Position numbers and translations under genes: made by a program
Part shown: positions 4,841 to 61,492 of the stretch, one piece after another
Numbering within the stretch: position 1 is the stretch's first letter
Layout: each line of letters begins with the position of its first letter
Assembly: GCA_033032865.1 (NCBI GenBank)
Contig: JAWHQI010000028.1
Coordinates: 8,389,001-8,453,000 of the forward strand
Length of the DNA stretch: 64,000 nt
Source: Dactylorhiza incarnata
Lineage: Eukaryota; Streptophyta; Magnoliopsida; Asparagales; Orchidaceae
Direction of reading: 5' to 3'
The notes under the pieces: model-generated
Told to the model about the DNA's origin: nothing
Database searches by the model: none
The model's input: only the letters and a program-made list of their open reading frames with translations

Positions 4841-5173
4841 ACTGTCGCATGGGCGACAGTGATTGTCGGAATTTTCCGACAGCGCTAAACTGCCGCTGGA
4901 GTGCCGTCGTGGGTGGAGTCGTGGGCAGTTGTTGTAACCGCCGAGCTGTCGCCTGGGCGACATCGATGTCGGATTTCCGACAGCGCTAAACTGCCGGTCG
5001 TGGGTGGAGACGTGGGCAGTTATTGTAACCGCCGAGCTGTCGCCTGGGCGACATCGATGTCGGATTTCCGACAGCGCAAAACTGTCTTTCGTCGATCTGC
5101 CGTGGAGGGAAGTAGTTGTAACTTCTCTGCTGTCGCCTGGGCGACAGTGGCTGTCGGAATTTTCCGACAGTGA
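4841..5173. repeat. COP1a U3 array of short inverted repeats (TGTCGC/GCGACA and TGTCGG/CCGACA)
   Basis: Four units spaced about 90-115 bp apart. Each unit has two hairpin-like palindromes: a TGTCGC-4 nt-GCGACA type followed about 6 nt later by TGTCGG-4 to 6 nt-CCGACA. The DNA between units is also repeated (gtcgtgggtggagtcgtgggcagtt type). The array lies directly upstream of the TATA box on the transcribed strand. Confidence 0.88.
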
Positions 5174-5318
5174 AATTTTCCCACATTCAATTTTAGCTCC
5201 AGTAGCAATGTGAACATCTCATACCTGTTATCTGCACACCATTAATGAAAATAGAATCAAATACAAAAGGGACTTTGTTATTATCAAACCGGAGGAGTGC
5301 GAAACGCATGCTCCAACA

Positions 5319-5692
5319 TCCTTTACCTGCGAAGTACCTTCATGAGTGATTTCTAAAAGATTCCAAATTTCAAATGCAGTATTACAAGCACAAACTCTAT
5401 TAAATTCAGTGCGATCTAGTGCGCAAAATAAAGCATTCATGGATTTTGCATTGTTCTTACATTTTAATTTATCATTGTCATCCCACTTGTCTTTGGGTTT
5501 GTCCATAGTTACATCTCCTACAACAAATGTTGGGGAAGTATAACTCGTCTCGACCATATTCCAAACTTCTATGTCGAGAGCTATTAGAAAACACCGCATT
5601 CGGGTTTTCTAATAGTTATAGTCTGTGCCCGTAAAAAGTGGTGGCCTACTAATTCCTTGCCCCTCAACGAACGCGTGATCGTTGTGCGCCAT
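5319..5692 (-). pseudogene. COP1b gag, N-terminal fragment
   Basis: Starts at the ATG 5690-5692 that matches the COP1a Gag methionine at 3992. The same N-terminal gag domain is readable (DIEVWNMVE, KWDDNDKLKCKNNAK, RTEFNRVCACNTAFEIWN). A Trp codon of the conserved NYWKTRM block is a TAG (near 5609), and the frame is cut at 5319 by the COP1a LTR, after which it reads out of frame into LTR sequence. It is a dead fragment. Confidence 0.85.
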
Positions 5693-5741
5693 TACTCCCG
5701 GTGGTAAAACCGTTTTGGAGTAACCTCCCTCTGATACCACG

Positions 5742-6916
5742 TGTTGGATCTTGTGGCGCCCTTAGAGGGGGGGGGGGGGGAGTTAATAAGGGCCTTTTTA
5801 AATTCAGAGTTTTTACTTAAGAATTGTTAAAACAAATTTTTGCTTTTCTAAAAACCACTTATAAAAATTTTCAAACTATGAAAATTTTAAATTAATTCAA
5901 ACACAAATTTCTAAGTTAAAGATTAATCAACCAAATTTGCAATTAAAGAAAAAGTCATAATTTTTAATAATGAAATTCACATACAATAAAAATGATCTTA
6001 ACAATGCTTAAGATCAAGACACAAATATGATAATAAACTTTTACAATTTGAGTTTACCAATCCTTCTCCCAAGGATCGGAAGGCTATCACTTGTCTCTCC
6101 CTAGACCAAGCCCAAGCCTATCCTCTAGATTTTCCCAAGATCTAGACGTAGCACACAAGGCCACGATTTCCTACTAAGCCACGCAAGGACTTGGACGCTC
6201 CGCATAAGGAAGCGATTTCCCCCTAAGCCACACAAGGACTTAGACGTCATGCACAAGGAGACGATTTCCCTACCAATACAAAGTGAAATGTATATAAATG
6301 AAAATACAAAATGAAAAGAAGAACTCCCTAGAAATTCAGATCTCTGAAAGGAAGGTTGAAGCCTCGAGATGATCATTGATGTAGAAGTGCGTCCGATCAC
6401 ATCTTCAATCTCAAACCTTCTAAGCACAATTGGGAGTTGATGAGGTTCTGGAGCTCTCTGGTTCGGATGCACTCAGGAAAGGACTTTGAATTCTCAAAGC
6501 TTGCAATGCACGAACAAAATGAACCAAATTATAGTTTCTCACTGTCGCCTGGGCGACATCGCTGTCGGAATTCCGACAGCGCTAAATTGCCGTTCGTTGT
6601 GCTGTTGTGCGAGCAGTTGCTGTAACTTCTGTCCTGTCGCCTGGGAGACATCGTTATCGGAATTCCGACAGCGCTAAACTGCCGCTCGTCGTGCTGCCGT
6701 GCGGGTTGTTTCTGTAACTTCTATCCTGTCGCCTGGGCGACAGTAGATGTCGGAAAATTCCGACATCGAAATTCTCCATACAGTCAAATTGAGCTCCAAT
6801 CAGAATTGTGAACATCTCATACTTGTTACCTGCACACCAACAATAAAAATAGAATCAAATACAAACGGGATTTTGTTATTATCAAACTGGAAGAGTGCGA
6901 AACGCATGCTCCAACA
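5742..6916 (-). repeat. COP1b 5' LTR
   Basis: 1175 bp, TGTTGGA...TCCAACA ends as in COP1a. It carries a run of about 14 G at 5767-5780 in the U5 motif, the same 45-bp direct repeats at about 6150-6270, a TATA-like CTATAATT (minus, 6527-6534) and a three-unit inverted-repeat array at 6541-6770. It is about 100 bp shorter than the COP1a LTR, mostly because it has one array unit fewer. Confidence 0.9.
6541..6770. repeat. COP1b U3 inverted-repeat array
   Basis: Three units of the COP1 motif (TGTCGC-CTGG-GCGACA followed by TGTCGG-AATT-CCGACA and variants), immediately upstream of the TATA-like box on the minus strand. Confidence 0.85.
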
Positions 6917-7798
6917 TACTCCATAGCAATGCAGTTAAATGAAGCTGCTGACATCTACAAGGAAGAGTTGAGAGGAGAACTTGCAACTCTATCATAAGCT
7001 CTTGATGCAAAAGCCACTTCTTCCCATCTGAATGAAGAAGTTGGCAGGTTAAAAAGTGACCTTCAAGCTGATCTTGAGAATGTATTCCAAACTCTCTCTG
7101 GCACAATCACAACAGTTAAGCAAGAGCTCCATCAACAAATATATGAAGAAGCTAGAAAGGGGGAGAATACAAATGCACACATCAATTCTGACCTCACACT
7201 AAAAGTTCTACAAGGCACTAGGATAGCTCTGAACCTGCCATTACTAGATGTTAATAGGGCAGAAGATTGGGATTTTCCTCATCAAGAAGCAACAGCATAA
7301 AATCAGAGATTGAAAGAGCAAAGAGAAAGAGAGCATGTATTGCTCACTGAGGAATTCATGGCCAACCAAAGGGATGAAAACAGGAGAGACCCTAACTTTG
7401 AATACTGGAGTGATGATTCCAAGAAGATAATCCTTAATGCTTGGGTAAGCCATGGTCAGATGTGCAAAGATATTGATAAGTTATATCCAACTGAGGAATG
7501 GATAAGACATCTTGAAAGGAACACTAAAAGAGATAAGGTATTCAAAGAAAACCTAGTCAAGAAAGATAACCCACAAAGAATGCCATCTAGGTACATCCCA
7601 AAACCTTTTATGTACTTTAGAAGGCAAGAGCTCAAGAGGAAGATTGCTGAGATTAAGGCAACCAATGCGGAAAAGGACTCAGCTATAAATCTGAATGAAG
7701 ACACTGTTGTACCTACTGAAGACAAGGAGCCTGCAGTCCAAGAAGAAGCTGCTGCTGAGATTCCTGAATGTTATTCCTCTAAGAAAAGAAAATATTGA
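6917..7798 (+). pseudogene. COP2a extra ORF downstream of pol, 3' part
   Basis: About 290 residues in one frame, interrupted by TAA at 6994 and 7298. It is a charged, helix-rich protein with coiled-coil character at the start (LNEEVGRLKSDLQADLEN) and a conserved central block (FEYWSDDSKKIILNAW, LYPTEEWIRHLERN), ending in a basic SSKKRKY tail. The same blocks occur in COP2b. Position after pol and before the polypurine tract matches the envelope-like extra ORF of SIRE/Maximus elements, but I see no signal peptide or membrane segment. The basic tail looks like a nuclear localisation signal. Function unknown. Confidence 0.7.
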
Positions 7799-8153: not shown

Positions 8154-8311
8154 TGTTGGGAAATTGACCCTCAATGTCCCTTTAATTTGAAGAGGCCTCA
8201 CACTCAAATACAAAGTACAAGTTGTATTTGATAAACCCTATTTGTATCTCAAAAGCATGCAGGGTTAGGTTATTCCAAGACAAGGAATAGTATTGGTAAC
8301 AATCTGCCCAA

Positions 8312-8441
8312 AACCGCTGAGACTTGTGTCTGTCCCAGCGGAACCGCTGAGAAGGAGACTGGAGCTGCCGCTGAGACTGGAAGCTGTCTCAGTCCAACCT
8401 CTGAGACTGGAAGCTATCTCAGCCACACCGCTGAGACAGAT
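8312..8441. repeat. COP2a U3 inverted-repeat array (CCGCTGAGAC / GTCTCAG)
   Basis: Repeated CCGCTGAGAC with inverted GTCTCAG partners, about five units in 130 bp, some 120 bp upstream of the TATA box. Several halves contain TGTCTC/GAGACA. Confidence 0.82.
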
Positions 8442-8879
8442 TCAAATGTGATGACGGGATCTGCTTTTGGCGCAAGCGAAAATAAAAAGGGAAAAGCAAC
8501 TCCAATCTGCCCCCATACTGAGTCAGGAGGATTGAAATAGCCGTTGAAGCCTTCTGGAGGTATAAAAGCAAAAGCTAGGGCACACCAACAAGCACTATTT
8601 CATTAAAAAGCTTTGCTGCAAGCCGCAATCGTGCATTTACGTTCCAGCCAGTTGAAGTTGTTCTCTGAAGCTGGAGTTAATCTTCTGAAGGAGATTAGTT
8701 AGCTCTTCTGTACCAACTCAAGGAGGGCAAGTTGATCTTCTGCTTTGCTGAAGGAGAAGATCAAGGTGATTCAAATCTGAAGCTGTTGTCTTTCAGATGT
8801 GAAGAAAGAAATCAGAAGGCCTGAGAGTAAACCTTTTGTCTTCTGTATTTAGTACAAACTCTTTTATATCTCTGTAAGG

Positions 8880-9125: not shown

Positions 9126-9402
9126 GATCACTCTTGATCTGAGAAGTTCTGACGAACTTGTGGTGTAAGCTCAAGGAGCTGAGATTGGAGTTTGTGGCCT
9201 TGTCTAACTCACTGTTAGAAAGGTGAAGGGGGAAAGAGGACTACTCAAGACACCCTGTCTTGAGTAACCTCTATACATCCTTGGGTGCTTTCTGTGATTG
9301 AGTTTTCTACAGCTAGATACATTTGGATTACATAAAGAAAATAAGTAAAACCTATTCACCCCCCCCCCCCCCCCCTCTAGGTAATATTGACTACACCTAA
9401 CA

Positions 9403-10704: not shown

Positions 10705-12442
10705 TGATGCGCAAAACAATGACTGCAAACAACAACGGCAAGTGTACCGCATCGAATGTAGTATAAGTTATAAAAACCAAGGTCGTATTAGACTCGGGGC
10801 GGTTGAGTACTCTTACTTCAATAAAATCTCTATTATTCTATCAATTAAAACTTTGGGTTGATTTTGCAAAAAGAAAATAAAAATAAGATTAAAGCAATGA
10901 GTAAAAAGGCTAGCACTCGATCTTGAATCACCTAGGAAAATAAATATAATAAGAACAACTTCTAATTCTCTTAAGAAATTACTTGACCGTGGAGGTTCCC
11001 GAATTATGAACACACCTCTCTCGAGGATACGCTCAACTGAGTTTAGGTTGATCAATCGAAATTTCGTTCTAGAATCAAAATCCCTAAAACTCGCTTTATC
11101 GTAGTGAAGCCCTCTATTGGCTTTTACTCCAATCCGGGAGAATTATGTCATCCTCTCTTGAGGAGTGCATTCAACTCTCTTTATCCTTGAAGTGATCAAT
11201 TCGAATTCAAAACCTCTCGGTTATTAGATTACGAAAACAAGAATGAGAATTATATATCGACAATATAATCTCAAACAATAAAGTTCAAGGATAAATCTTA
11301 AGCATTCTAAGGAAGAGAAAGAGAAGCTAAGGATTAAATCATGAATTATTCATTCCTTGGATCATCTAGATCGAGTACTTATAATATTTTAGCTACTCAT
11401 GGAGATTGAGGAATCAAAATAAATAAAAGAGCACATCATAAAAGAGAGAGGAAATGAGAGAAGAAAAGAACTATTTTATTAAATTGCTAAGAAAGTTACA
11501 AGCTAGGAATTAAAAATTACAAACTATTTTAATTGAACGTACCAATTGCAAGAAGAAAAGGAGTACAATAACTACAAAAACATGAAAATAACGACATGAA
11601 ATGAAAAGTCTAAGTCCTAAAAATTCATCCTTTAAACATCTGGAGAAGGTCCCCTTAAATAGCTGACATTTTGGTGTTACACGCCCTTGGTCACGCCCGT
11701 GACCAGGGCGTGTCGGGGGCGTGATCGGCTGGGTGCGGGAAGGGCGCCGTCTGTCTTCAATGCAGGCGTTTCGGGTGCGTCACGCCCTAGGTCACGCCCG
11801 TGAACTAGGGCGTGTAATCTCAATTAAGTGCTGCTGGCGCGAATCTTCGGCGGGAAGGCGCGCTGTTGAATTTTCGTCTATCTCATCATTTTCGTCGAAC
11901 GCCAGAATATTCGTCGAACACAGCCATGGAGCAGTTCGTCGATCACCTCAATATTTGTCGAACGCAGCAGCCGGGCGCAGTTCGTCGAACGCCAGAATAT
12001 TCGTCGAACGCTGCTCATATCTAGTGGTCACGCCCCCAGGTCACGCCCGTGACCTAGGGCGTGTAACTTTAAAGTTACGTGGTCGGTGTGCTAGCAGAGG
12101 GTGGTGGGTTCCGGCCGTGACTATGATGTCACGACCTTGGTCACGCCCGTGACCTGGGCCGTGTACTTGGCGAACTTTTCATGGAACGTGCCCGGAGTGG
12201 CAGAAACAGGTCTGGAACACTGCGCAGGTTACACGCCCATGGTCACGCCCGTGACCTGGGGCGTGTAAATATATTTTCTGCTCCAAATGTCCAGAAAACC
12301 TGAAAATATAAAATAAACATAAGTTAGCTTATGAAATTAACATAGGAAAGATTTATACGATATAATTTATAAAAATAACATAATTTCATAATAAAATTGT
12401 AATAATACTATACTACAAGATGAGTAAATAAATTACTCATCA
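10705..12442 (-). repeat. ATH1 3' LTR
   Basis: About 1738 bp. The left edge TGATGCGC at 10705 follows the GYP1 coding end directly; the right edge is CTCATCA at 12442. It includes a TATA-like CTATTTAAG on the minus strand (11654-11661) and a long inverted-repeat array upstream of it (11679-12267). Overall form resembles the ATH2 LTR, but the sequence outside the array is different. The left edge is less certain than the right. Confidence 0.75.
11679..12267. repeat. ATH1 U3 array of two motif types (GGTCACG/CGTGACC in CACGCCC frames; TTCGTCGAACG)
   Basis: At least five units of an inverted CACGCCC...GGTCACGCCCGTGACC...GGGCGTG type, near 11680, 11780, 12030, 12135 and 12230. Between 11870 and 12010 lies a second block of TTCGTCGAACG repeats, itself an inverted TTCG/CGAA. 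The array sits upstream of the TATA-like box on the minus strand. Confidence 0.85.
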
Positions 12443-15553: not shown

Positions 15554-16754
15554 TGTTGGGAATTTGACCCTCAATATTCCCTTGATTTGAAAAGGCTTCA
15601 TACTCAATGCTAAGTACAAAGTTGTATTTGATAAACCCCATTTCCTCTCATAGTTATGCAGGGTTTGTTCATACCAGGGTATGAAGAAAGTTCAGTTGAT
15701 TTGCTGCCAAAACCGCTGAGACGAGCTCTTAGTCTCAGCTGAACCGCTGAGATAAGACCAAGAGCCGCTGAGAAGGAGACTGGGCTAGCTAAGCTGCAGA
15801 TAGACAAAATCCACTGAGATAACTGCCTATCTTAGCTGATCAGCTGAGACGGAACACATGCATCCACTGAGACGGGAAGCTATCTCAGCCCATCCACTGA
15901 GACAGATTCAAATATGCAGACGGGCTTTACTTTTGGCACAAAGAGCTGTAAAGTGAAAAGGATGTTCCAATCACTCCCATGCTGTGTCAGGAGGACATAT
16001 GATAGCCATTGAAAGTCGAGAGCATTATAAAAGAAACAATTAGGGCTTTGTAAAGTCTCTCGATCACTAAAAAAAAGAACATTACTGTTCCATTACAGGC
16101 AGCCAAGAAAACCTTCATTCCTGTTGCCTGAAGCTGCAAGGAGAGAATAGATTGCTTATCTTGATCAAGTCAATATAAGGCAAGTTGATCCTCACTCTTT
16201 CTCTGAAGTCAAGGATCAAAAGAATCAAAGTTGAGGCCACTGGACTCATCCCAGATTCAAGACTTCTTCTACAACTGTTCAGCAACAGAAGTTAGGTGTA
16301 TTCCATCTACTTTTGTTATTCATACATTGTTATTGTTGTAGGAATTTAACAATTCTGAGTTGTAGGGCATAATTGCCTGAGTGCAAGGTTGTTTAGCCTG
16401 AGAAGTAGAGCTATGTGTTCAGCTTGAGTGGAGGATCATTGGATGATCTGAGGTAGGGCTATTAAGCCTGAGGTAAGGTTTGAGAAAACCTGAGAGATTC
16501 TGAGGGATCTGTGTTGTAATCTCTTGGAGCTGAGTTTGGAGGTGTTGGCCTTTTCTAACTTTGTGTTAGAAAGGTGAAGGGGGAAAGAGGACTACTCAAG
16601 ACACCCTGTCTTGAGGAACCTCTATAAATCTTGGTGTGGTTTCTGGATGCTTGATACATAACTAACTTAAAATCAAAAAACAGCTAATTTATAGCCAAAA
16701 GAAAAAGAAACCTATTCACCCCTCCCCTCTAGGTGACTAAGACTACATCCTAAA
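15554..16754 (+). repeat. COP2b 3' LTR
   Basis: About 1200 bp, starts TGTTGGGAATTTGACCC. The inverted-repeat array is at 15711-15905, the TATA box TATAAAAG at 16026-16033 and the U5 motif CCTATTCACCCCTCCCCTCTAG near 16710. The end (ACATCCTAAA) has lost the canonical ACA, so the right edge is set by comparison with COP2a and by the start of GYP2 coding. Confidence 0.85.
15711..15905. repeat. COP2b U3 inverted-repeat array (CCGCTGAGAC / GTCTCAG)
   Basis: About eight CCGCTGAGA(C/T) or CCACTGAGAC units with inverted CTCAG partners, ending about 120 bp upstream of the TATA box. It is longer than the COP2a array (about 195 against 130 bp). Confidence 0.82.
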
Positions 16755-19542: not shown

Positions 19543-19647
19543 AGGTGGGGGAGGATGTCACGACTTGGGGTTAGCCTCCGGAGATTTCTAGAGAAATCTA
19601 GGATCTTGGAGTATATTCTTGTACATAGAGTTCTAGAGATTAGTCTA

Positions 19648-19660
19648 GAAGATTCTTGAA
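19648..19660 (+). promoter_or_regulatory. Heat-shock-element-like site in the GYP2 LTR
   Basis: GAAGATTCTTGAA fits the three-unit consensus GAAnnTTCnnGAA exactly and lies 72 bp upstream of the TATA box. Other imperfect TTCTAGA elements flank it. Confidence 0.6.
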
Positions 19661-19732
19661 AGATGTAGATACAGGAAATAGGTAGAAAAGTCTAGATCCT
19701 TCCATCTTTTGGAGGAAACCCCTTTGGGGGCC

Positions 19733-19740
19733 TATATAAG
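19733..19740 (+). promoter_or_regulatory. TATA box of the GYP2 LTR
   Basis: TATATAAG in a GC-rich setting (GGGGGCC before, GGGGGAG after), about 180 bp into the LTR. Confidence 0.7.
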
Positions 19741-19958
19741 GGGGAGAACCCCTCATTTGTAAATCATCCAAGAATTCAAGCAATTTAAGCATTCTTTTTC
19801 TCTTCACTCTTGTTCTCTTGCTCTCTCTTTTAAGTGCTCACTTACTCTCTTCATCTTGCCACGATTAGTGTTGGAGAAGGCTGACTTAGCTAACTGCAAA
19901 GGGAACGGAAAGGAGCTAAGGCCGCACGCGACATTGTCAAGGGGACAAGTCCATGACA

Positions 19959-20788
19959 GTGTAAGCAAACTAAACATACGTACGTGAAAAATAAAAATAA
20001 CTATGTTCGATGCAAATATGAATAAAAATGAGAGAAATAACAAAGGGATGCGACTCAAGTTGCATCACTTTATGTGATAATATGACATAAGTACTGACTG
20101 AACTAACTTGCCCTAACAATTAAGGTTCGTTATAAAGCCTTTTTCTGTATTGCTCTTCAGTCTCCAACCCGATCATCGGGATATCTGGGCTTTTTGAACT
20201 CAGCACGACTGACCCCCCACTATAGTTGATGAACGTTTGCAATCAAAACTGATGCTTCCAACCCTATACGCTACTTCGATCATGAGAATGATTCCTTCAA
20301 TCGATGACACCTCCATGCATCGAACTTGAAATTTTACATTCGAAATATGGAGGTTAGGGAAAAAATATGTTGAGCTAGTTGGCTAAATTAGAGTCAGTTT
20401 ATTAATGGTAGTGGTTGTTGATTCACACATTTAAACTACAGGCTATCTTTTTTTTTTAGCTTATATGAGAGACTTTATTGATTTAATTATTTTTACAGCA
20501 TCATAATAACATGTTGGTTTTTCTTCAAATTTTGTTTTAGGTCAATGAGAGTTAGTTTGCTAAAATGTAAGTTGCGACAAAGTTGTGTTTTTTGAGTCCA
20601 CTTGGTTTGTGCTGAATGCAATTCATGGAAGTGTTGAATGTATTTTACTAAAAATGCATCAGCATTTCAGAGAACTGCTTACCTGAATCGTTGAATGCAA
20701 TTCACTGAAAGCAATTGACTGAACTACATCTACAATTTTGTGAATTGCTAAATGATTATTTCATTATTGGTTTACTTTTATTATATAT
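19959..20788. other. Unassigned DNA between GYP2 and COP3
   Basis: No coding, repeat family or RNA gene recognised. It flanks both GYP2 and COP3, so it is older than COP3, and is continuous with 40539-41153 across the COP3 insertion. The last five bases (20784-20788, TATAT) are the COP3 target duplication. Confidence 0.6.
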
Positions 20789-20970
20789 TGTTGGGAAAAA
20801 CCCTGAGATTTAACTTAACAAATTATATGAAAAGTGATTTTATCCCAAAGTATTAAATTACCCATTTTATAGTGAGGTTAATCTGTTCAATCGATGTCTT
20901 TGGATATCACACTCAACCTTGGGTGTCATGACCAGATCATGAGATGAATATTTGGACAAAGTTAATATTT

Positions 20971-21390
20971 GCGTCGAATAGAATTCGACGCAATATCGAA
21001 TTCATATCGACGCTACTCTGATTAGAAGTCCAAGTGCTTCAACCCTTTTGTTGAAGTAACTCAAGTCAACGTTACGTCGAATAGATATCGACATAGAGGT
21101 CAGGAACTTATCGAAGTAACTTCAGAAGTTGACACTGCTTCTACTTCAAAACGACGCAGAAGGGGATATCTGTCGAAGCCATCTAAAGTTGACGCAACGT
21201 CGACATCATCTCGACGCAGATAATGAAAGTTAGAGCCATGCTGTTCAACTTGACGAGTGCGTCGATAAGATATCAACACAACGTCGACTAACATAGTTCA
21301 ATCAGAGCACAGATGAAATCAAAACTGCTCCTACAAGAACTCGAAGCTGCGTCGATAAGAGAGGAAGTGAATTCGACGCTACGTTGAATA
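20971..21390. repeat. COP3 5' LTR U3 array (GCGTCGAA / TTCGACGC)
   Basis: About nine units built on GCGTCGAATAGAATTCGACG-like inverted pairs, spaced 30-60 bp, running almost into the TATA box (6 bp gap). CpG occurs in each half-site. Confidence 0.88.
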
Positions 21391-21395
21391 TAGTC

Positions 21396-21403
21396 TATAA
21401 AAG
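21396..21403 (+). promoter_or_regulatory. TATA box of the COP3 5' LTR
   Basis: TATAAAAG; the 3' LTR has TGTAAAAG at the same place (39445-39452), a transition that should weaken it. Confidence 0.7.
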
Positions 21404-21724
21404 TTTAACTTTTTAGCTGTCATTCTGATGCCTCTCTCATGGACCACACTTTTCAAGACCGTTCTCCAACAACCTAATAATTGCCTGAAGTATAAGGAAG
21501 AATTAAAGAAGGAGACAAAGGATTTCTTGGAAGTATATTCCTCTTTGGTGGATGGGTCGAGAATTAATAATGGAATGAAAGAGAATGTCCATGGAAAAAT
21601 TCCTTTTCTGGTCTTACCAGAAAGGGAAGGAAATTGAAATTAAATACAATCTAAAAAAGGATAGAGAAGAAAGAGAAGGATACAACACTCATCACTATCA
21701 GCCGTCTTCTTCTGATTAGGGTTT

Positions 21725-22539: not shown

Positions 22540-22551
22540 TGGTATCAGAGG
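22540..22551 (+). other. COP3 primer binding site
   Basis: TGGTATCAGAGG, initiator methionine tRNA type, two bases after the LTR. Confidence 0.92.
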
Positions 22552-25974: not shown

Positions 25975-27384
25975 TGATGAGTCCCATTTATATACACTTT
26001 TATGGACTCATCTGGACTAGTTTTCACGCACTTGCACTTCACTTTTTGTGTATTAATGCTTATATTTCATTTAGTCACAATTCTCACATGAAGTGCACTT
26101 CTAGGCCCGATGTGGTGCATTTTCTTGATTATCACTCTTAATGTCTTTCATGCTGTGTTATGTGCCACTTTCAGTGGTTTTGATTTGTGTTTATGCTGGA
26201 ACAAGGGTCGTGCAGGTGTTCACGGTACAAATCTGTACAGGAACACTGCGCATGATCACTGGTTATACCGCGCATGACCACTGATCGTGCGCCGCCGATC
26301 GTGCGCGTTCATTTGCTTCCCAATGTTGCATTATGAATTTGGTCGTGCGTTTTTACGCACGGTCGTGCGATCTTTATATTTTATAAAGTTTTTGTCGCAG
26401 GTTCCGCTGGGACAGTGCGCACGAGCGCCAAACTTCTAGTGTGCACGACCACTGGTCGTGTGCACTATTTTGCCAGCGCCTCTTTAATGCCTTGTTCCAC
26501 GATTTTAGGGTATTCATTCCGCCCCGTAGCCGCCCATCCACGGATTTTGGGAGCTTCTCTCCCCCCATTCGCCTCCCTTCGTCCATCCATCCTCCGTTCA
26601 AGATCCGGGCATCGATTCATCATCCAAATGCTCCGCTGCCTCCACTCCGGCGAGTTCTCAACCACGCAACACTATTTGTGTGAAAAGAAGAAGAAGATGC
26701 AGGGATTCGGTGCCAGCTCAGAGGTTCAAGTGAAGAAGACGGGACGTTAGCGGAGGATTGACAACCCTTCGAGTATCCTGGACGTTAGCCGAAGCCGAGC
26801 CCGGTTCCGGATTGACAACCCGGAATTCCGGCTGTGAACGACGGCGAGTCTTCATCCTTTGGTGACGAAACCTCTATCTCTCATTTTCATATTATTATTT
26901 GTTGTGTAATTTCTGAGATTTTGATGTATTGAACAATTAGTTGTGATAATATAATCATGTCTCGTTATATTATTGGTTGATGATCTCGTTGTGACAATCG
27001 TTTCGTTTCATTCACATTCACAATCCACGCTATAGCAAAAGTGCTATTAGCATTTGCGAAGAGGTGCTCTCGACCCTCAACACTTCCGCCCTTGCGATCG
27101 CCCATCCGCGTGCCTTCTCGTCCATGCGCTTTCCTAAGCACGGCATCGCGGCCGTTGCATCCATCCCGCCTTGCGAAGCAGAGTTTTGACCCGCATCTCA
27201 TTTCTGTGTAGTAATTTAGGAAACCAAAATCAAAGCCCCTATTTTTCCTTTAATTTACTCTTGTAATTATTTTCTCAATCCGAAGAGTCAAACTAACCAC
27301 GCGCATTCCTTGAGAGACGATATTTGGGGACGTACTCCTAACTTTATTACTTGTGCGACTGGTGCACTTGCCGAGCACGCATCA
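25975..27384 (+). mobile_element. SOLO-D1: solo LTR inside GYP3 gag
   Basis: 1410 bp, TGATG...CATCA, flanked by a perfect 5-bp duplication TCACT (25970-25974 and 27385-27389). No primer site, coding or second LTR lies inside. It is related to SOLO-D2 along its length (TGATGAGTCC start, GGACTCATCTGG, CGCACGACCACTGGTCGTGCG array, GCGAAGAGGTGCT segment). It formed by recombination between the two LTRs of a full element. Superfamily unknown. Confidence 0.92.
26247..26460. repeat. SOLO-D1 inverted-repeat array (CGCACGACC / GGTCGTGCG)
   Basis: Degenerate units of CGCACGACC-ACT-GGTCGTGCG type over about 210 bp, more worn than in SOLO-D2. The place matching the SOLO-D2 TATA box reads CTTTAATG here. 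Confidence 0.78.
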
Positions 27385-28777: not shown

Positions 28778-30017
28778 TGATGTAGTGAAGGATGGGACAC
28801 GCGTTCGTTTACGCTAACGGAAAACCATCATCACATAAATTAAAAACAACATAGGAGGGCTCCGACCAATAGCGAACAAAAAGGGGTCGGTTGGCTCCAA
28901 AATCTGATTTATAAAATTAAGCCGGACTCGATACAACGTCCTTAGGACCTACCTCTCCAACAAGCACACAACTCACCGAAAGTCGGACTCGATACAACGT
29001 CCTTAAGACCTACCTCTCCAACAAGCACACAACTCACCGCACCTACACAAGCATCTATTATTTCAACTTGAACCATTTCAAACGCAGCAATTAATTTATT
29101 TCGGAGCGGCGGCAAACGATTAGTAGCGGTGGAAACTTTTGTTGAGATTAATTCCCTTGTTAACACTAATTGTGCCAAATCTTGGAGAATAAGTCAAGGC
29201 TAGACCGAGTTTGCTCCCGCAATGGATCTTCCCAATCCGGGTCACAAGAGATTCAATAACAACGAATCGAAATCAGAACTTGCAAGCGATGCGTTTTAAA
29301 AATCATGGAAAGGACGGTTCGAATAAACCTCCACAAATTTCACAGAAAGAAGTCACAATATGAAGTAGAGATTACCCAACCAAAGAAGATGAACACACAC
29401 AAGATAAGGTGCGAGATTCACTCTCTCCACAGATCCACCGGCGTCACACCGAATGGGTTTGCAACCTTCTTCCTTGGCGTCGCACCGAAGGAAGCCACGC
29501 CGGAGTCGCACCGAACGGGATGGAGATCGAAAGGGAGGCTTCACACCAAGGGGGCGGCGGCTGGAGGAGTGCCTCCTTGTGGCCGAAATTTCCAATGAGG
29601 GAAATAGGGTTTTGTTTTTCTTCTTCAATCATCCTAATCTCATCAAAAAGGCCTCCTTATATAGGAGTTACAACAAAACCTTAACCATCCATGATGGTGA
29701 TGTAATCTCATCCATCCATATGGTTAAATACACACCATAATAAAATAAAATGTCCCAAAATAAAAAAAGACAAACTTTTATGAATATAAAATTATCATCA
29801 AACATGAAATAATTTTATATTCATAAAGATAAAATATAAGTGCATAAATAAAAGTGCATAAATAAAACTTTAATTTTTTACGGCGGCTTTGGCACGCCAC
29901 GGGCGGAGATTGTAACGCGGACTTCCTTCAGCATCATCATGGCACCTCAGATCTTTGTGTCGCAGCGCCTCGGCAACCGGGTCATCATCAAGGAGTGTCG
30001 GAGGGGCCGCGCCATCA
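28778..30017 (-). repeat. GYP3 5' LTR
   Basis: 1240 bp, TGATG...CATCA. TATA box TATATAAG on the minus strand (29656-29663), 19-bp-arm inverted repeat upstream of it (29777-29827), short AAGTGCATAAAT direct repeats near 29838-29870, and the two 59-bp tandem copies in U5 (about 28921-29039). It differs from the 3' LTR by scattered substitutions and small indels only, so GYP3 is a fairly recent insertion. Confidence 0.93.
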
Positions 30018-31800
30018 CATGTGATGCCAAGGCCATGAACATGCTGTTCTCAACCATGTTTGATGAAATATTTCAGAAAGTTGCTGATTGCAACTCTGCA
30101 AAAGAAATCTGGGAATCTCTCTCCAGATTAGTTGAAGGAAGCTCTGATGAAAGCAAAGACAAAAAGGCTCTTCTTATATCTTAATATGAGAATTTCAAGA
30201 AAATGGCTGATGAAAGCATTAGAGAAATGTATGGCAGATTCAGTCTCATCATAAATGAGTTGAGAGGGCTTGACAAGGAGATTTCTCTGACAGAAATCAA
30301 TGACAAGCTTCTCATGTGTTTCCCAAGCACATGAGACTCTAGAATCTGGGCCATCAGAGATTCTAGATGCCTCAGAGAGATATTAACAGATGCTTTCCTG
30401 GGAAAGCTCAAATCTTATGAGCTCCTATTGAAAAGCAGGGCTGAGTCAGAAGCCTATGAAAAGACACCATCTTATAAAGAAAGGACTCTTGCATTAAAAA
30501 TTATAGAAGCAGAGTCCTCCACCACTGAAGAGGAAATGTTTAATCTTTTAGCTAAGAGATTCAAAAAGTGGGTTAGGACAGAAGATTCCAGGAGGAGAGA
30601 GAAGAGCTCAAGCAAGCCAAGGTATGATAAAACTCCTAAATAGGAGGTTATCTGTTTTACTTGCAGGAGGCCAGGACACATTTCTACCAAGTGTCCTAAG
30701 GATGAAAAGAACAAGAAAAATAAGCAGAGGAAGGAGCACAAGAAGAAATCTTTCATGAGAAAGGATAAGAAAGGAGGGAAAGGTTTCATAGCTTAGACCT
30801 GGAGTGATTCAGACTCTGAATCAAGCTCCTCCTCATCTGATGATGAAGAAGAAGGTGGACCAGGAGAAGCCTGCTTAATGGCTCTGGAGAATTCCACTAG
30901 TGATGTTGAGGTAAGCATCTTTCGAGACTTTGACTTCTCCTCAAAAGATTTTAAAGTATGTTTCAAGGAATTCTGCCAAGATTTTATTAACAATCAAAAG
31001 GAACATGAAACAATCAAATTAGAACTAGAGGAACTTAAGAAGGAATACTTGTTAGACAATGATAATTCAAACTTAGAGAAAGAAATCACAAAGGCAAAGG
31101 CCTTGGTGGACTCTTTAAATGGAAGGAGTCAAGAGATTAGAAATATCTCACAAAATCTCTCCAAGAGATTTGATCATCTTGACCAAGGATCACAACCATC
31201 CACCAACACACAAATCCCTAGCATACATGCATGGTAAAACCATATAGCATCATTTAGGTCCGAGTCCTGTGAAATTCTTAATTATAATAACCCTAATAAA
31301 CTCACCATATTTAATAAGGAAAACACTAATAATCAACTTGGAATATTAGGAAAACACCCCTAGAAAAATCAAACTTAAACAATATATTTCTTAATAAAAA
31401 GAAAAATACATCGAATAGAACTCGACGTAATTTTATAAATACGTCGACTACAATTCGACGGAGCTCAGCATATGCGTCAACATCCATTCGAAGCAAACAT
31501 GAGGATGCGTCGAATTATATTCGACGCAACCAATATTCTGCATCGAATTGCTATCGACGGAACTATGTAGGCACGTTAAATTACATTCGATGCAACTCTA
31601 AGACTGCATCGAATTCTTCTTGATGCATGGTCTCTGCAGAAAATTTCTCATCATCTAAACCTTCCTTCTTATCTATTCCTAGATGCTTTTATTGTGCTAA
31701 ACTAAGACATATTGCAAGATATTACTAGCATAAAGATGCATCATTTCTTCACCTATGGGGGTATAATGGAAGACCTTCTCATTCTTTCATAACCTCATAT
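30018..31800 (+). pseudogene. COP3 gag, remainder after GYP3
   Basis: Resumes with CDAKAMNMLFSTM and KEIWESLSRLVEGSSDESKD, then MYGRFSLIINELRGLDKE. A zinc knuckle CFTCRRPGHISTKC lies near 30656-30700, then basic and acidic linkers and a coiled coil (LELEELKKEYL, KEITKAKALVDSL) to the TAA at 31237. Further on, in readable frame, come the palindrome-encoded tract (31410-31625) and a second, decayed knuckle CFYCAKLRHIARYY near 31680. Stops at 30182, 30333, 30641 and 30794 break it. The order knuckle, coiled coil, linker, knuckle matches COP1a Gag. Confidence 0.82.
31410..31625. repeat. TCGAA/GTCGA inverted-repeat array inside COP3 gag
   Basis: Six or seven units of the COP3 LTR motif (for example GCGTCGAATTATATTCGACG near 31507) in the linker before the second zinc knuckle. 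Read with the downstream knuckle, the array is in frame and encodes a repetitive Ser-Asn-Tyr-Ile-Arg-Arg-rich tract with a single stop near its end. Confidence 0.82.
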
Positions 31801-36569: not shown

Positions 36570-36670
36570 GTTCCCTTTATTATGTATAAACAACTATTTT
36601 CAATAGCAAACTATTACTGGTCAAAACAACAAGAATCTTAAAGAGAATCATATATGTATACTAAAAGCTA

Positions 36671-36856
36671 CATCGAATACAAATCGACAAAACGTCGAAT
36701 TCTACTCAATGCAAGCTTAGAGAGCACTTTGGAATAGATCCTTCGAATATCATTCGACGTAACATCGAATTGCTATCGACGCTTACGTCGATATCATCAT
36801 TGATGACTTCTTCTCGAAGCCATGTCGACATCAACTCGACGCTCCATCGACATTGA
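36671..36856. repeat. Third COP3 array (CATCGAA/TTCGACG) between pol and the extra ORF
   Basis: Six or so units of the COP3 LTR motif in the non-coding spacer after RNase H, ending about 215 bp before the extra ORF start. A TATA-like CTATAACC follows at about 36919. Confidence 0.78.
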
Positions 36857-37040
36857 TAGGTCGCACACACTTCCATATTTTTGGCATGCTGAATTCCGCT
36901 TTTCTCGACATTGCTTTGACTATAACCCTAAGTTGCGACGATTCATCTACTCAAAACAACTATTGTGCCTAATTTGTCTGGTGCTATTCGAAGTCTCTTT
37001 CTCTCCTCTCTTCTCTCTACCCTCTCTTCGTCTCTTCTCT

Positions 37041-38837: not shown

Positions 38838-40533
38838 TGATGGAAAAAACCCTGATATTTAACTTAACAAATTATATGAAAAGTGATTTTATCCCCTAGG
38901 ATTAAATTACCCATTGTATAATGAGGGTAATCTGGTCATTAGATGTCTTAGGATATCACACTCAACCTAGGGTGTCAAGACCAGATCATGAGATGAATAT
39001 TTGGACAAAGTTAATATTTGCGTCGAATAGAATTCGACGCAACATCGAGTTCATATCGACGCTACACTGATTAGAAGTCCAAGTGGTTCAACCCCTCTGT
39101 CAAAGTAACTCAAGACGACGTTACATCGAATAGATATCGACATAGAGGTCAGGGACTTATTGAAGTAACTTCAGAAGTCGACACTGCTTCTACTTCAACA
39201 CGACGCAGAAGGGGATATCTGTCGAAGCCATCTAAAATCGACGCAACGTCGACTTCATCTTGACGCAGATAATGAAAGTCAGAGCCATGTTGTTCAACTC
39301 GACGGGTGCGTCGATAAGATATCGATGCAACGTCGACTAGCAGAGTTCAATCAGAGCTCAGATGAAATCCAAGCTTCTCCTACAAGAACTCGAAGCTGTG
39401 TCGATAAGAGAGGAAGTGAATTCGACGCTACGTCGAATATAGTCTGTAAAAGTTTAACTTTTCAGCTATCATTCTGATGCCTCTCTCATGGCCCACATTT
39501 TTCAAGACTGTTCTCCAACGGCCTAATAATTGCCTGAAGTAGAAGGAAGCATTAAAGAAGGAGACAAAGGATTTCTTGGAAGTATATTCCTCTTTGGTGG
39601 ACGGGTCGAGAATTAATAATGGAATGAAAGAGAATGTCTATGGAAAAATACCTTTTCAGGTCTTACTAGAAAGGGAAGGAAATTGAAATTAAAGACAGTC
39701 TATAAAAGGATAGAGAAGAAAGAGAAGGATACATCACTCATCACTATCAGTCGCCTTCTTATAATTAGGGTTTCTCTTCTTCTTCCTCCTCTCTCAGGAA
39801 CCCTAACAAAGAAAAGAATAGAAAGAGAATGCAGCTGTTCTTCATCTGATAGAACAGGAGATCTAAAAGCTGCTCTTCATCACCATCACAAAGAAGCTAG
39901 ATCTCAATCAACAGAAGTTCAAAGGATTTGACAAACAAAGCCTCTGCAACTCACACCATGTAAAGCAGAGGTTAATCAAGAGCAGATTTTGTGGAACATC
40001 TGATTGGTTGTTCTTCAAACAGCCATCTCAAGAATTTTGAGAACGGAATTCCTTCAACCTTATCACTTCTTCTTCTCATTCTATTTTCTGTAAAAGAGTT
40101 TTATTAATCCCTCTTCAAAGGATTCAGTAGTTTAAGATCTCCTTATCAAAAGATCTGGTGGTTCAAGATCTCCTTATCAAAAGATCTGGTGGTTCATGAT
40201 CTCCTTATCAAAAGATCAGTGGTTCTAACAGTCTCCTTATCAAAAGACTCTAGCACTGCTGGTGCATTCCTACCAGGTGGTAGAAGAGAGGAGTACCCCA
40301 CATTTTGGGGAGCCTCTATAAAATTCTTTGTGTTTGTGTTGTGATTTTCTGTGCTGTCCCAATCTTCTATTCAACATTTTATTTCCTGCATTTTACTTAT
40401 TCTGCCTGTGTTGTTAACTATAACTCCTTAGTTTAATTTATTTTTAACACAATTAGGATAGAAATATTGTAAATCTCTATTCACCCCCCCCCCCCCCTTT
40501 AGAGGATTCTCAGAGGCACACTGTGCACTTTCA
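38838..40533 (+). repeat. COP3 3' LTR
   Basis: 1696 bp. Starts TGATGGAAAAAACCC and ends ACTTTCA. Array at 39020-39440, TATA position mutated to TGTAAAAG (39445-39452), short TTC run, direct GGTTCAAGATCTCC repeats near 40130-40260, U5 motif with a C run near 40484-40497. Paired with the 5' LTR by sequence and by the flanking TATAT. Confidence 0.95.
39020..39440. repeat. COP3 3' LTR U3 array
   Basis: Same units and almost the same length as 20971-21390, with scattered substitutions in both directions (some halves restored, some broken). Confidence 0.87.
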
Positions 40534-41153: not shown

Positions 41154-41338
41154 TGATATGCTCCTCATAAATGGATAAATGTTGCATGGGTTGCGATTAG
41201 CAGAAACTCCATCATAAGAAAGCGGAAATAATAGAAGAGAAGTCCGAACCATATCAACGAAGGGAAGGAGTCCACCGGCGCGCAGTTCACGCCCTGTCAG
41301 AGTCGGTCAAAGCCCAAAGACCGCACCCCACTACTTGG

Positions 41339-41605
41339 GTGTGGTTAGTCCACACCCCACTAAGTGGGGTGCGGACAGCTCGCACCCCGCCTGAGGGTCA
41401 AGCTGCACCCTCTCCATAGGGGGGTGCAGCCAAACTGCACCCCCCCCATGAGCGGGTGCGGCCGAACCGCACCCCCCCCATAGGGGGGTGCAGCCAAGGC
41501 GCACCCCCTATGAGGGGGTACGACCAAACCGCACCCCCATGGTGAGAGGGTGCGGCCTAGCCCCTTCCCGCTAGGGATGCGGCTGAAACCGCATCCCCCT
41601 TTGAC
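41339..41605. repeat. TAT1 5' LTR U3 array (GGGTGCGGCC / CCGCACCCC)
   Basis: About seven or eight units in which GGGGGTGCGGCC and an inverted CCGCACCCCC alternate with short CCATGAGG spacers. Each unit can fold as a strong GC hairpin. Confidence 0.87.
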
Positions 41606-41669: not shown

Positions 41670-41755
41670 GCGCTCAGAATGCTTCTGAGCATGTTCAGGA
41701 TGCCTCCGTGTTCGTTGCACGCTCAGAATGCTTCTGAGCGCGCTCAGAACACTTC
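41670..41755. repeat. TAT1 5' LTR second palindrome type (GCTCAGAA / TTCTGAGC)
   Basis: Two clear GCTCAGAATGCTTCTGAGC palindromes and partial ones between the first array and the TATA box; the 3' LTR has the same set at about 49365-49445. Confidence 0.8.
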
Positions 41756-48704: not shown

Positions 48705-49592
48705 TGTTATGCTCCTCATGAACGGGTAAATGTTGCACGGGGTGTGATTAGCAAAAACTCCATCATAAGAAAGAGGAAATGATGGAAGAGAAGTTTGAAC
48801 CATATCAAGGAAGGGAAGGAGTCCGTCGGCGCGTAGTTCACACCCTGTCAGAGCCGGTCAAAGCCCAAACACCGCACCCCACTACTGGGGTGTGGTTAGT
48901 CCATACCCCACTAAGTGGGGTTCAGACAACCTGCACCCCTCCTTGGCAGGGTGTGGCCAAACCGCACCCCACCTTGGTGGGGTACGGCTAAGGCACACCC
49001 CCCATGGGTGGGGGGGGGTGCGACCAAGCTGCACCCTCTCCATGGGGGGGGGGGGGGGGTATGGCCAAACTGCACCCCCCCCCATAAGGGGGTGCGGCCA
49101 AACTGCACCCCCCATGAGGGGGTGCGGCCAAGTCGCACCCCCCCATGAGGGGATGCGACCAAACCGCACCCCCGCTATGAGGGGGTGCAGCCAAGGCCCC
49201 CATGAGGGGGTGCATCCAAACCACACCCCCAATGGGGAGAGGGTGCGGCCTAGCCCCTTCCCGCTGGGGATATGGCCAAAATCGCATCCCCTTTTGATAG
49301 GAGGAGTCGTAGATCATTTTCCTCTTAGGGGCGTGATTCCCCCTCACTTCCATAGTCATGGCGCGCTCAGAACGCTTCTGAGCACTCTCAGGATGCCTCT
49401 ATGTTTGTTGCATGCTCAGAACGCTTCTGATCGTGCTCAGAATATTTCCACATTTTCGACATGCTCACATTTTGTCTTTCTAATTTCTCAGATTTTAGGA
49501 ACCGTCCGTCGCCTTTTTTACCTTCAACGAAGCTGCCCAAACTGCCCGAAGGGCGAAACTGTCATTTATGAAAATTGTTGATCAAGGTGCCC
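48705..49592 (+). repeat. TAT1 3' LTR, truncated by ATH2
   Basis: Starts TGTTATGCTCC; corresponds to the first 750 bp or so of the 5' LTR (41154-41903) but is 888 bp long because its palindrome array is larger. It stops at GGTGCCC (49592) where the ATH2 LTR begins; the rest should lie beyond the right window edge. Confidence 0.9.
48883..49292. repeat. TAT1 3' LTR U3 array, expanded
   Basis: About eleven or twelve GGGTGCGGCC/CCGCACCCC units against seven or eight in the 5' LTR; G runs up to about 17 occur (49045-49061). Open frames over this block on both strands are repeat products. Confidence 0.87.
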
Positions 49593-50173: not shown

Positions 50174-50189
50174 GCAAAAATTTCAGATT

Positions 50190-50642
50190 ACACGCCCTCA
50201 GTCACGGGCGTGACCAAGGGCGTGACTGCACTATTCACATCGGATCTGACAGCGGCGTGGGCTTTCTGGACGGCGCGGCAAAAAGTGGCATGTCACGGGC
50301 GTGACATGTTGGGTCACGGCCGTGACTTTGGACGGCTTCATTTAATGCAGCGTGGGTTGTTTACGGCGCGGCGGCAGAGCAGGGATCACGCGGGCAAGTC
50401 ACGGCCGTGACATGTGAGTCACGGGCGTGACTAGGGTTGACTTCTCGACAGCATCTCCACGTCTCGATGGCAGCCAGATGGAGGATTCTAAGATTACACG
50501 CCCTTGGTCACGGGCGTGACACTGGGTCACGAGCGTGACCGAGGGCGTGACTTGCTGTGGACTAGCTCAATTGGCGCGGCATCGACCCTGGACTGATCTT
50601 TAGGTTACACGTCCTTGGTCACGGGCATGACTGAGGGCGTGT
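50190..50642. repeat. ATH2 U3 inverted-repeat array (CACGCCC / GTCACGGGCGTGAC)
   Basis: Seven or so units of GTCACGGGCGTGAC-type palindromes with flanking TTACACGCCC and GGGCGTG, some nested (for example near 50495-50550). The core is closely related to that of ATH1. Confidence 0.87.
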
Positions 50643-50816
50643 ACTTGTCAATTTCTCCAATTTGTCCCAAAATTCTGCAAAAATCGAAATTAAGCTAAAT
50701 TAGAATTAGAAATTCAAAATAAACACTTATGACCTAGAAATGACATAAAAAAGGAAAATACAAATTAAATTTTTACAAAATTTTCTATTAAAAAGTTATG
50801 AAAGTACTACTTATCA

Positions 50817-58999: not shown

Positions 59000-59405
59000 A
59001 ACAGTACCAGTCCTAGGCCTCTGTATGCCTCGACGCTAAGAACACACAGCGGAGACCCTGCGTACTGCTCGACGCTAAGAGCACACAGCGGGGCCTCCAA
59101 GGACACAGAAGGGGACTTGGGTAGGTGAGCTCCAAGAGTCCAACCCAATCGGTCTAGAGTCTAACTGTCAGCTTCTGTCGGTGTCACGACTAGCAAGCCC
59201 GTAGACCCGCCACAAGTATCCTCCAACCAGGATCACTACACCACCATGTGTGAACCATGCATATTCATGTAGTTCCCATGCATACACCGTGCTATCAAGC
59301 ACCCAAGGACTCAACCAGTCCTAGGCCTTTGTACGCCTCGATGCTAAGAACACACATCGGAGACCCTGCGTACTGCTCGACGCTAAGAGCACACAGTGGA
59401 GCCTT
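59000..59405. repeat. Direct repeat pair in the TEK1 LTR
   Basis: 59000-59096 and 59315-59405 share about 90 bp (CCTCGACGCTAAGAACACAC type), each with an internal half-repeat CTCGACGCTAAGA(A/G)CACACAG. Confidence 0.85.
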
Positions 59406-61304
59406 CTTATCTTTCACATCATACCAGTCAACTGATGCTAACTAGCATCCAAGGCCCCCAACATTAGGGTCCTTAACATATCACCGCAAGATATAACCAT
59501 ACCTTATAATCCACCCCAAGCCATCAATGCTAACCATACCAAGTTATCATAACTCTTTTGCGGTGGCGAGTGTATATCATGGAAATTACTCTACGAAAAT
59601 CTGTAGGACTAGTTGTGTACGGTGTCATATTCATATTTTACTAAATATGTAATCCCCAACATATCACCAATATTCAATCGTCTTAGGTACAAATCACAAC
59701 GTGATTCAACACGATTAAAGCTATCAAGCTTATGGGGAGGTCATCACCAATCTACCTCATCCAATAGATTATCGAGCAATGTGAATATTAATTCATTCAT
59801 GTCCTTTTTACGATTCCACATAAATCTACAATTGAAGGTTCATTCAAGGGGTCATCTTAACAGAAATAAATCTGAAATCATTATCACAAGCCAATGCTAG
59901 CATATTCATGATTCATACAAAATTCCGGCCCAAACAGGCTTCACATTCAGCATTTATATCCCTTTCGAGTTGTGAAATAACACGGCAATAACTTTAATAC
60001 TACTTAATCACAAATTATGAATTTCAACAAGGATGTACATATTTTTATCACCTATGTCTCTAACAATTTTCATGAGCATCCCACCAATATAATAAGAGAA
60101 ATCCACAAAATACTGAGATCGGAAGTGTTATGACACAGTTTACTAAAACTGGATTTCTGGGAGTTCTACTCCACCCCAAATTATGTGCCACACCATTTTG
60201 GAAAGCTCTCATCAAGGACTACAACATTCATGTTGAGTTCGAAACCCAGATCCAAGTGGATCCTACCTAAAATCTGCTCTGAAGTGAACTACAGCAATCT
60301 GGACAGCAAAAACAGAACGCACTTAACACCTCCCAGCTTTCTGGACAGTCCACTCGACTGGACTTGTAGGGAGCTACAGGTCACTTCAGAAAACACGTAA
60401 CCTATCGTCGGAAAGCTCTTTCCGGGGGATACAACTTTCATGTTGAGGCCGAAGTCTAATACCAGTGGGATCAAGCCTAAAAATTGGCTTGAACCCAGCT
60501 GCGCATAATTTTTCCCTTAATAACCAAGTGCAATGTTATAAATTGAAACCTTCTTTAGCAAGGGGCTATTACCATCTTTATCTCAAGATATAATCAAAAG
60601 GCATATTTAACATGGGATTTTCCAGCATTTTTATCACAAAAGATATAATTTAAAGCCTACTTAACAGGGGACTATTCATCATCTTCCCAAAACAAGGGTT
60701 AGGTCATTTCACATCCTCTCCTCCAATACTCCCTCCAAAGACCACCATTCTTCACGAAATCAAGCTTTAAATCTTCGTATTGAAGAGAGGAGTTGATTGA
60801 AGGTAATAACATGGCGACGGCGCCTTAGAACGAAAGTTCTAGCGTGGTCTCTTCCTACGAAACTTCATGGAACTCACTGAATCAAACTCTTTTGAGTTCA
60901 ATGTCTCTCATAATATTCAGATCTAAAGATCTAACACCAAGGGAGAGGGGTCGGAAGTCACCTTATTTCCGGCCGACGATCACGATTGTCTCCTCGGCGG
61001 TATGGCGGCGGTTGGACGAGCTGAAATCCTCCTCCAAGCTTGCTCCTTCAAAACCCTAGGTCAAAACCTTGAGGGGAGGTTGGAAATGAAGAGGAAGTAA
61101 AAGAAGAAGAAGAAGAGAGGAAGGAGAAGGTGAACAATCCCATCTGATTGGGAGAGTTCAGCTCTTTAGGAAGAATCAAGTAGTGGGATTAGCTTAGGAT
61201 TGCATTAATGGTAAACCTTTCCCCTAAGCATAAATCTTGAAACTCTACCATTACATGTCAACCTCCTATTGGTCCCAAACTCCACCAGGAGCCTTATCCT
61301 ATGC

Positions 61305-61312
61305 ATTATAAG
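61305..61312 (-). promoter_or_regulatory. TATA-like box of the TEK1 LTR
   Basis: Minus strand TTATAATG, 28 bp downstream of the palindrome array. A weak match, listed because its place fits the other LTRs. Confidence 0.35.
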
Positions 61313-61340
61313 CCACCACCAAACAGAAACCCCGTGACTC

Positions 61341-61492
61341 TGACACGGCCGGTAGCACCGACGGTAGCACTACGCCGGGTGCTAGCCCTTCTCAGCCATC
61401 TCGACGGCACCGCTGAGATAATTCGGTCGTCTCGACGGCCGCTGAGACGATTCGCTAGCGCCGGCGGTAGCGATACCGCCGGGCGCTAGCGA
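61341..61492. repeat. TEK1 U3 inverted-repeat array (CCGCTGAGA, CTAGCGCC/GGCGCTAG, CTCGACGGC)
   Basis: A mix of CCGCTGAGA(T/C) with CTCAG partners, GGTAGCACCGACGGTAGCAC repeats and CTAGCGCCGGCGGTAGCG/CCGCCGGGCGCTAGCG palindromes in 150 bp. The CCGCTGAGAC core is the same as in COP2. Confidence 0.8.

Follow-up and report, generated by a model that had tools for sequence, protein, structure and literature searches.

The 3.27-Gb genome of the orchid Dactylorhiza incarnata is represented here by a 64-kb stretch (contig JAWHQI010000028.1 of assembly GCA_033032865.1, positions 8,389,001 to 8,453,000; hereafter the window) that consists mostly of nested long terminal repeat (LTR) elements. LTRs were located by self-comparison and by eye, and their ends and TATA words were assigned by eye. 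Eight of the ten LTR families, namely the Copia families COP1, COP2, and COP3, the Gypsy families SOLO-D, TAT1, ATH1, and ATH2, and TEK1, carry arrays of short inverted repeats, at about the places given in a preliminary description of the window (Table 1). These arrays are clustered upstream of the TATA word and are built from dyads, in which two inverted half-sites stand at a constant spacer length while the spacer sequence is free.

A blind scan of the window for inverted repeats (perfect arms of at least 6 bases, spacers of at most 12, 400-bp scan windows, 100 dinucleotide shuffles per scan window) placed TAT1 (z 27-35), SOLO-D2 (22-23), COP1 (17), ATH1 (13.5), ATH2 (12.5), the second COP1 LTR (12), and COP2 (10.5) at the top. 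Since z exceeded 4 in 54 of 319 scan windows, some of them coding DNA, the null is too tight for moderate z values to carry much meaning, and weight is therefore placed on position relative to TATA. When 16 LTRs were compared individually with 300 dinucleotide shuffles each, as the preliminary description had proposed, the inverted-repeat count lay beyond every shuffle in 11, which supports its claim of a recurrence in Copia and Gypsy above chance. The observed count was reached by 4 of the 300 shuffles for SOLO-D1 and by one for SOLO-D2; GYP2a, GYP2b, and GYP3 have no excess (143, 139, and 39 of 300, respectively).

Position relative to TATA is strongly skewed. Among 13 LTRs, 61 CpG-containing inverted repeats lie upstream of TATA (6,956 bp) and 4 downstream (12,658 bp), as had been claimed, and their density is greater upstream in 10 of the 13, with COP2b, GYP2b, and GYP3 containing zero CpG repeats. 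This count leaves out SOLO-D1 and TAT1b, in which TATA was not assigned, and GYP2a, in which it is ambiguous. That the arrays are CpG-rich, as first described, holds for most of the array families but not for COP2, whose arrays (14 and 12 repeats vs 3.1 and 3.7 in shuffles) lie in CpG-poor LTRs (observed/expected ratio ~0.2), nor for TAT1b, whose single CpG repeat is reached by 84 of 300 shuffles.

Table 1. Arrays, dyads, and array-negative LTRs in the window (window coordinates).
Feature	Position	Strand	Motif or remark
COP1 gag half-sites	2335..2369	-	TGTCGC/GCGACA, spacer 3; inside open gag frame (open reading frame 2061-4040)
COP1 LTR (4043-5315, sense minus), array	4838..5172	-	TGTCGC-N4-GCGACA and TGTCGG-N4/N6-CCGACA dyads
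Second COP1-type LTR (5744-6917), array	6540..6770	-	Dyads as in first COP1 LTR; ~15% LTR divergence between them
COP2 LTR array	8310..8445	+	CTGAGAC-N8-GTCTCAG, CpG-poor
ATH1 LTR array	11680..12270	-	GTCACG-N2-CGTGAC dyads and second word TTCGTCGAACG
Second COP2-type LTR array	15708..15905	+	CTGAGAC-N8-GTCTCAG, decayed
GYP3 LTR	19555..19976	+	Negative for array (per-LTR shuffle test)
COP3 5' LTR array	20965..21440	+	CGTCGA-N7-TCGACG; TCGA words frequently at 11-bp distance
SOLO-D1 LTR array	26260..26470	+	Diverged GCACGACC/GGTCGTGC; 16-mer in common with COP2
GYP2 LTR	28779..30017	-	Negative for array (per-LTR shuffle test)
COP3 gag coding array	31400..31640	+	33-bp (11-codon) units, CGTCGA-N7-TCGACG in frame, ahead of CCHC knuckle
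SOLO-D2 LTR array	33600..33850	+	CGCACGACC-N3-GGTCGTGCG; TATA word ~33876
COP3 post-pol linker array	36660..36880	+	CGTCGA-N7-TCGACG (window copy only)
COP3 3' LTR array	39014..39450	+	CGTCGA-N7-TCGACG
TAT1 5' LTR array	41320..41600	+	Repeated GTGCGG-N5-CCGCAC; units separated by C/G runs that differ in length
TAT1 5' LTR second dyad	41717..41749	+	CGCTCAGAA/TTCTGAGCG; expanded in relative L144
TAT1 3' LTR array	48870..49260	+	Array present
ATH2 LTR array	50190..50650	-	GTCACG-N2-CGTGAC
TEK1 LTR array	61320..61500	-	CCGCTGAGA words; long CGGCGGTA/TACCGCCG and GCTAGCG palindromes

Each dyad has one preferred spacer: N4 or N6 in COP1, N7 in COP3, N3 (also N15) for CGCACGACC of SOLO-D, and N2 (also N14) in ATH1 and ATH2. 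The CTGAGAC half-sites of COP2 are separated by N8 in 4 of 5 pairs, and of the 66 GTGCGG pairs in TAT1 that lie no more than 30 bp apart, 60 have N5. Two dyads were also searched for genome-wide with patterns allowing 0-14 free bases (15 spacers), with the reversed pattern as control; spacers were tallied by hand among the plus-strand matches listed. GTCACG-N0..14-CGTGAC gave 147,918 matches vs 4,160 for the control, and the plus-strand matches listed have N2 in 42 of 50 cases and N14 in the other 8. CGTCGA-N0..14-TCGACG gave 151,774 matches vs 4,056, with N7 in 46 of the 54 plus-strand matches listed, N14 in 6, and N6 and N5 in one each. Since the latter matches include arrays with a 41-bp step and spacers other than those of COP3, the identical dyad and spacing occur in unlike arrays. 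This combination of constant spacer length and free spacer sequence supports the option of dimeric transcription-factor sites offered in the preliminary description.

The COP3 dyad is also found inside protein-coding DNA. In 30 copies, an array of 11-codon units lies in frame between gag and the CCHC stretch. Codons were counted in 29 copies, with 174 units recognised by a protein-level pattern. Within the units, Ser at position 2 is encoded by TCG in 117 of 158 cases vs 7 of 491 nearby, Arg at position 6 by CGA in 149 of 152 vs 4 of 315, Thr at position 1 by ACG in 59 of 76 vs 3 of 221, and Ala by GCG in 54 of 72 vs 2 of 193. Across 27 copies, letters of the dyad are the same in 4-6 of 6 units, but many of those in the spacer in only 2-4. 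The units probably arose through duplication, and their likeness is thus partly inherited, but that dyads agree better than spacers is an argument for selection, and the simplest reading of the pattern is that the nucleotide word has been kept rather than the peptide. COP1 contains half-sites at a similar place in gag, from about amino acid 559 of 659 and ahead of a second CCHC-like stretch, and all 40 scored copies have this segment, at an identity of at least 97%. Dyads also occur in the linker following pol in COP1 (copy L129, 1356-1375, 1951-1993, and 3196-3239) and COP3, with an intact ENV frame shown in neither copy. As a separate observation, many of 30 translated COP3 copies (L009-L038) have an in-frame stop (CTNV*) at a constant place between gag and protease (~31840-31860), which may reflect stop readthrough between gag and pol.

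By signals read by eye, COP1-3 look like Sireviruses. Poly-C integrase signals near the LTR ends, in the form of CACCCCCCCTCTA-type runs, occur in all three (~4050-4075 on the minus strand, 9355-9380, 16717-16733, 22483-22505, and 40482-40502), and a TATCAGAG primer-binding site follows the LTR in two of the families, COP1 (~4030-4042, minus) and COP3 (~22537-22552). All three also possess a palindromic motif that is repeated within the LTR ahead of TATA, as in the RM boxes of Sireviruses. In COP1 the final dyad is ~15 bp from the TATA word. Where TCGA words in COP3 LTR copies lie at most 60 bp apart, the distance is a multiple of 11 in 45% of cases. TGTCGG is an ARF-type auxin word, but the preferred spacing of such sites is 7-8, against N4/N6 in COP1, and no ARF assignment is made. 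Two COP1-type LTRs with an identical internal fragment stand head to tail at 3618-6920, an arrangement resembling a recombinant tandem. In the accessible text of the 2010 paper that described RM boxes, these palindromes form CpG islands at a mean distance of 37 bp ahead of TATA (measured from the island), recur in the linker before ENV and, in two elements, at the ENV start, and are absent from other Copia elements, the comparison being confined to Copia with Gypsy outside it (PMC2829016). The palindromic arrays upstream of TATA in COP1-3 correspond to these boxes, and the linker copies in COP1 and COP3 may do so. A CGG-CCG core, to which the table of that paper gives one exception, Tnd-1 (PMC2829016), is present in the TGTCGG/CCGACA dyad of COP1 and missing from COP2 and COP3.

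SOLO-D, ATH1, ATH2, and TAT1 are placed by domains and by TGGCGCCGTTGCCGGGGA and TGGCGCCGTCTGTGGGAA, which are primer-binding site words of Athila/Tat type. ATH2 encodes PF03732 (Gypsy gag) and PF00078 (reverse transcriptase), and its own primer-binding site, read by eye, has one change; TAT1 encodes PF00078 and RNase H. TEK1 is an LTR with a purine tract read by eye, and its name is carried over from the preliminary description. A single dyad, GTCACG-N2-CGTGAC, is common to ATH1 and ATH2. SOLO-D is not only a solo LTR, despite its name: the first primer-site type, TGGCGCCGTTGCCGGGGA, which is that of Athila, lies downstream of its relatives L140, L142, and L143, and its LTR copies are spaced by 4.7-4.8 kb, mostly as pairs and once as a triplet (C299, C621, C444, C1995, and C2492). 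SOLO-D is thus a short element with an internal length of ~3.2 kb, found once as LTR-internal-LTR-internal-LTR. The second type, TGGCGCCGTCTGTGGGAA, lies downstream of the TAT1 relatives L144 and L147, while L139 and L141 match ATH1 and ATH2. ATH1 also has a second tandem array (46 bp) of the word TTCGTCGAAC at 11891-12011, and by eye a similar one is present in the Tat-type slice L145. Between the TAT1 dyads (41405-41557 and 48979-49257) stand C and G runs of 5-20 bases and varying length, which might form G-quadruplexes.

Other copies in the genome carry the arrays as well. Of the 40 best-scoring candidates per query, every one matched the array segment of COP1, the COP3 LTR, COP3 gag, SOLO-D, ATH2, and TEK1; for ATH1, 39 of 40 span essentially the whole query and one is without the first 112 bases. 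TAT1 matches are weaker, several of them mainly over the array. The nearest kin of the COP3 and TAT1 LTRs found in the window form matching groups on its own contig (C2089), at ~7.94-8.00, 8.43 (the window), 8.85-8.89, and 9.34-9.36 Mb, as if from segmental duplication of the region. A less biased sample was drawn from the Athila/Tat primer-binding site, with 28,368 occurrences in the genome vs 0 for the reversed control. Ten sites were chosen blind to their flanks, and 1-kb slices were compared with 200 shuffles each. L140, L142, L144, L145, and L148 lie above all 200 shuffles, and the observed count is reached by 2 for L143, 4 for L146, 43 for L147, 149 for L139, and 177 for L141, so that clear arrays are present in seven of ten Athila/Tat-type LTRs. 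The L139 LTR has GTCACG-N2-CGTGAC dyads 1.8-2.3 kb upstream of the primer site, beyond the slice, and again 9.3 kb further on. Given the kinships described above, the ten LTRs are not ten independent families.

The arrays had been called family-specific, and this stands in that their vocabularies are mostly distinct, but not for the few words common to unrelated families or the one dyad of ATH1 and ATH2. When shared 8-mers were compared for 28 array pairs against 200 shuffles, three pairs lay beyond all shuffles, namely the related ATH1 and ATH2, COP2 and TEK1 (17 common 8-mers, shuffle mean 1.9), and COP2 and SOLO-D (15, shuffle mean 3.2, with a 16-mer in common). Word sharing across superfamilies favours host factors, although exchange of units between families is possible. 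TAT1 and L144 are similar downstream and differ in their dominant word, which points to word turnover.

The arrays are, on balance, probably clusters of double-stranded dyad sites for dimeric DNA-binding proteins, and the proteins that read them are probably encoded by the host, most likely as several factors. The dyads, of two inverted half-sites at constant spacing, match in size the site of a dimeric transcription factor and are packed in U3 directly upstream of the LTR promoter. Host dimers bound there would raise transcription of the element or hold its promoter open against silencing. Tandem duplication would supply the units, binding would preserve half-site and spacing, and unrelated families would reach one architecture since they need one service.

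Several points weigh against this interpretation. No match of any half-site to a known factor was made. GYP2 and GYP3, the exceptions already recognised at the outset, have neither an array nor an excess of inverted repeats by the per-LTR shuffle test, and most of the remaining family pairs have no excess of word sharing over shuffles. The COP1 gag dyad has a spacer of 3, not 4 as in the LTR, and the constancy of spacing might in part come from tandem duplication. The genome copies are the best-scoring candidates, which do not gauge loss of arrays elsewhere. Finally, predicted RNA folding of the arrays is strong (z -3.5 to -11.5).

This folding is what would be expected if the copies in U3, gag, and linker act as hairpins in genomic RNA, in packaging, dimerisation, or recoding, or if they template silencing small RNAs, an explanation that we regard as unlikely. 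COP1a (z -8.5), SOLO-D2 (-10.9), TAT1a (-11.5), ATH2 (-8.4), and COP3 gag (-6.0) fold most convincingly; because three control stretches deviate too (-2.9, -2.9, and -4.5), folding of ATH1, TEK1, COP2, and the COP3 LTR is not clearly above controls. Small RNAs of maize Sireviruses concentrate on LTR palindromes according to the accessible parts of two papers citing 2016 work (PMC10760457; PMC5311732), but giving rise to small RNAs may be an effect of the palindromes rather than their function. Among distinct mispair events, G-U (103) is not above A-C (120), with 154 others, and the LTR families alone give 64 vs 72. There are 43 alternative Watson-Crick events, most of them from COP1 and COP3, whose models or registers overlap. 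Compensatory change is absent, as 0 of 202 aligned column pairs have two Watson-Crick types, with fixed mispairs of 2 G-U, 2 A-C, and 5 others, and the lengths of TAT1 C and G runs do not covary (rho 0.17, p 0.37, 31 units). These mispair, covariation, and run-length tests are weak, as differences between copies are probably mostly decay after insertion. In an RNA with a loop of 2 the innermost base of the Athila dyad would be unable to pair, yet it is conserved at least as well as the adjacent CpG base (mismatch 0.054 and 0.041 vs 0.107 and 0.051), and this is counted for a DNA site. The earlier proposal of packaging or dimerisation hairpins is weakened: strong folding remains, whereas covariation, a G-U excess, and stem-length compensation in TAT1 were not found. 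DNA sites are thus favoured over RNA by these comparisons, though not firmly.

It is improbable that the arrays dock an anti-silencing protein encoded by the element itself, as VANC does for VANDAL. Such a role would fit the dense packing of a single short motif in each family and its presence in several parts of COP1 and COP3 (LTR, gag, and post-pol linker), and VANDAL elements likewise have dense short-motif arrays that differ between families (PMC5735166; PMC10398659). However, in the available text the VANC21 motifs all point one way, lie outside coding DNA, and are recognised by a known protein of the element (PMC5735166), whereas the present dyads are inverted, one array is coding, and some words recur in unrelated families. 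Furthermore, CGTCGA-N7-TCGACG also occurs in arrays with spacers unlike those of COP3, and short elements of SOLO-D type would require help in trans. Least probable is a functionless by-product of tandem duplication and palindrome-making template switches in reverse transcription, which accords with the tandem 30-92 bp units of several arrays but leaves unexplained their clustering upstream of TATA, the one spacer length with unlike spacer sequences, the retained CpG-rich half-sites, and the CpG codons of gag amid diverged spacers.

Returning to host-read dyad sites, a wider and more tentative proposal, which we think possible but doubtful as a whole, is that unrelated Copia and Gypsy elements arrived by convergence at a small set of dyads with fixed spacing, through which a few dimeric host proteins would open or drive LTR promoters. 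Demand would be so strong that the Sirevirus-like gag keeps a further array in which the DNA site, not the peptide, sets the codons, making coding DNA a binding platform too, and the word turnover between TAT1 and L144 would reflect an arms race against silencing.

Tnt1 box I and kindred U3 enhancer repeats of plant LTRs, mentioned in PMC2829016 and PMC10760457, are single-family cases, whereas here one architecture recurs across superfamilies within one genome. They share with the present arrays palindromic or repeated activator sites in U3. Maize Sirevirus LTRs likewise have palindrome arrays in their cis-region, but in the accessible text on maize Copia LTRs show structure peaks and Ty3 elements no obvious one (PMC10760457), in contrast to the clear Athila/Tat-type arrays found here. 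Similarly, the available text on RM boxes reports none in gag (PMC2829016), and here a gag array and analogous Gypsy LTR arrays are present. The Copia part is therefore already published, which, with the internal COP1 and COP3 arrays, is an addition to the preliminary description. No description of Gypsy LTR arrays was found in the open-licence literature searched, which is not proof of absence, and as far as that literature shows, the Gypsy arrays and the gag-coding array are new.

In this genome, the architecture known from Sireviruses is not limited to Copia. A dyad with about 150,000 copies per genome represents a large sink for any protein that binds it. The gag array allows DNA-level and protein-level selection to be told apart in one element, which the LTR arrays cannot. 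These arrays bear on how LTR promoters are driven in large genomes and on why their control regions are palindromic.

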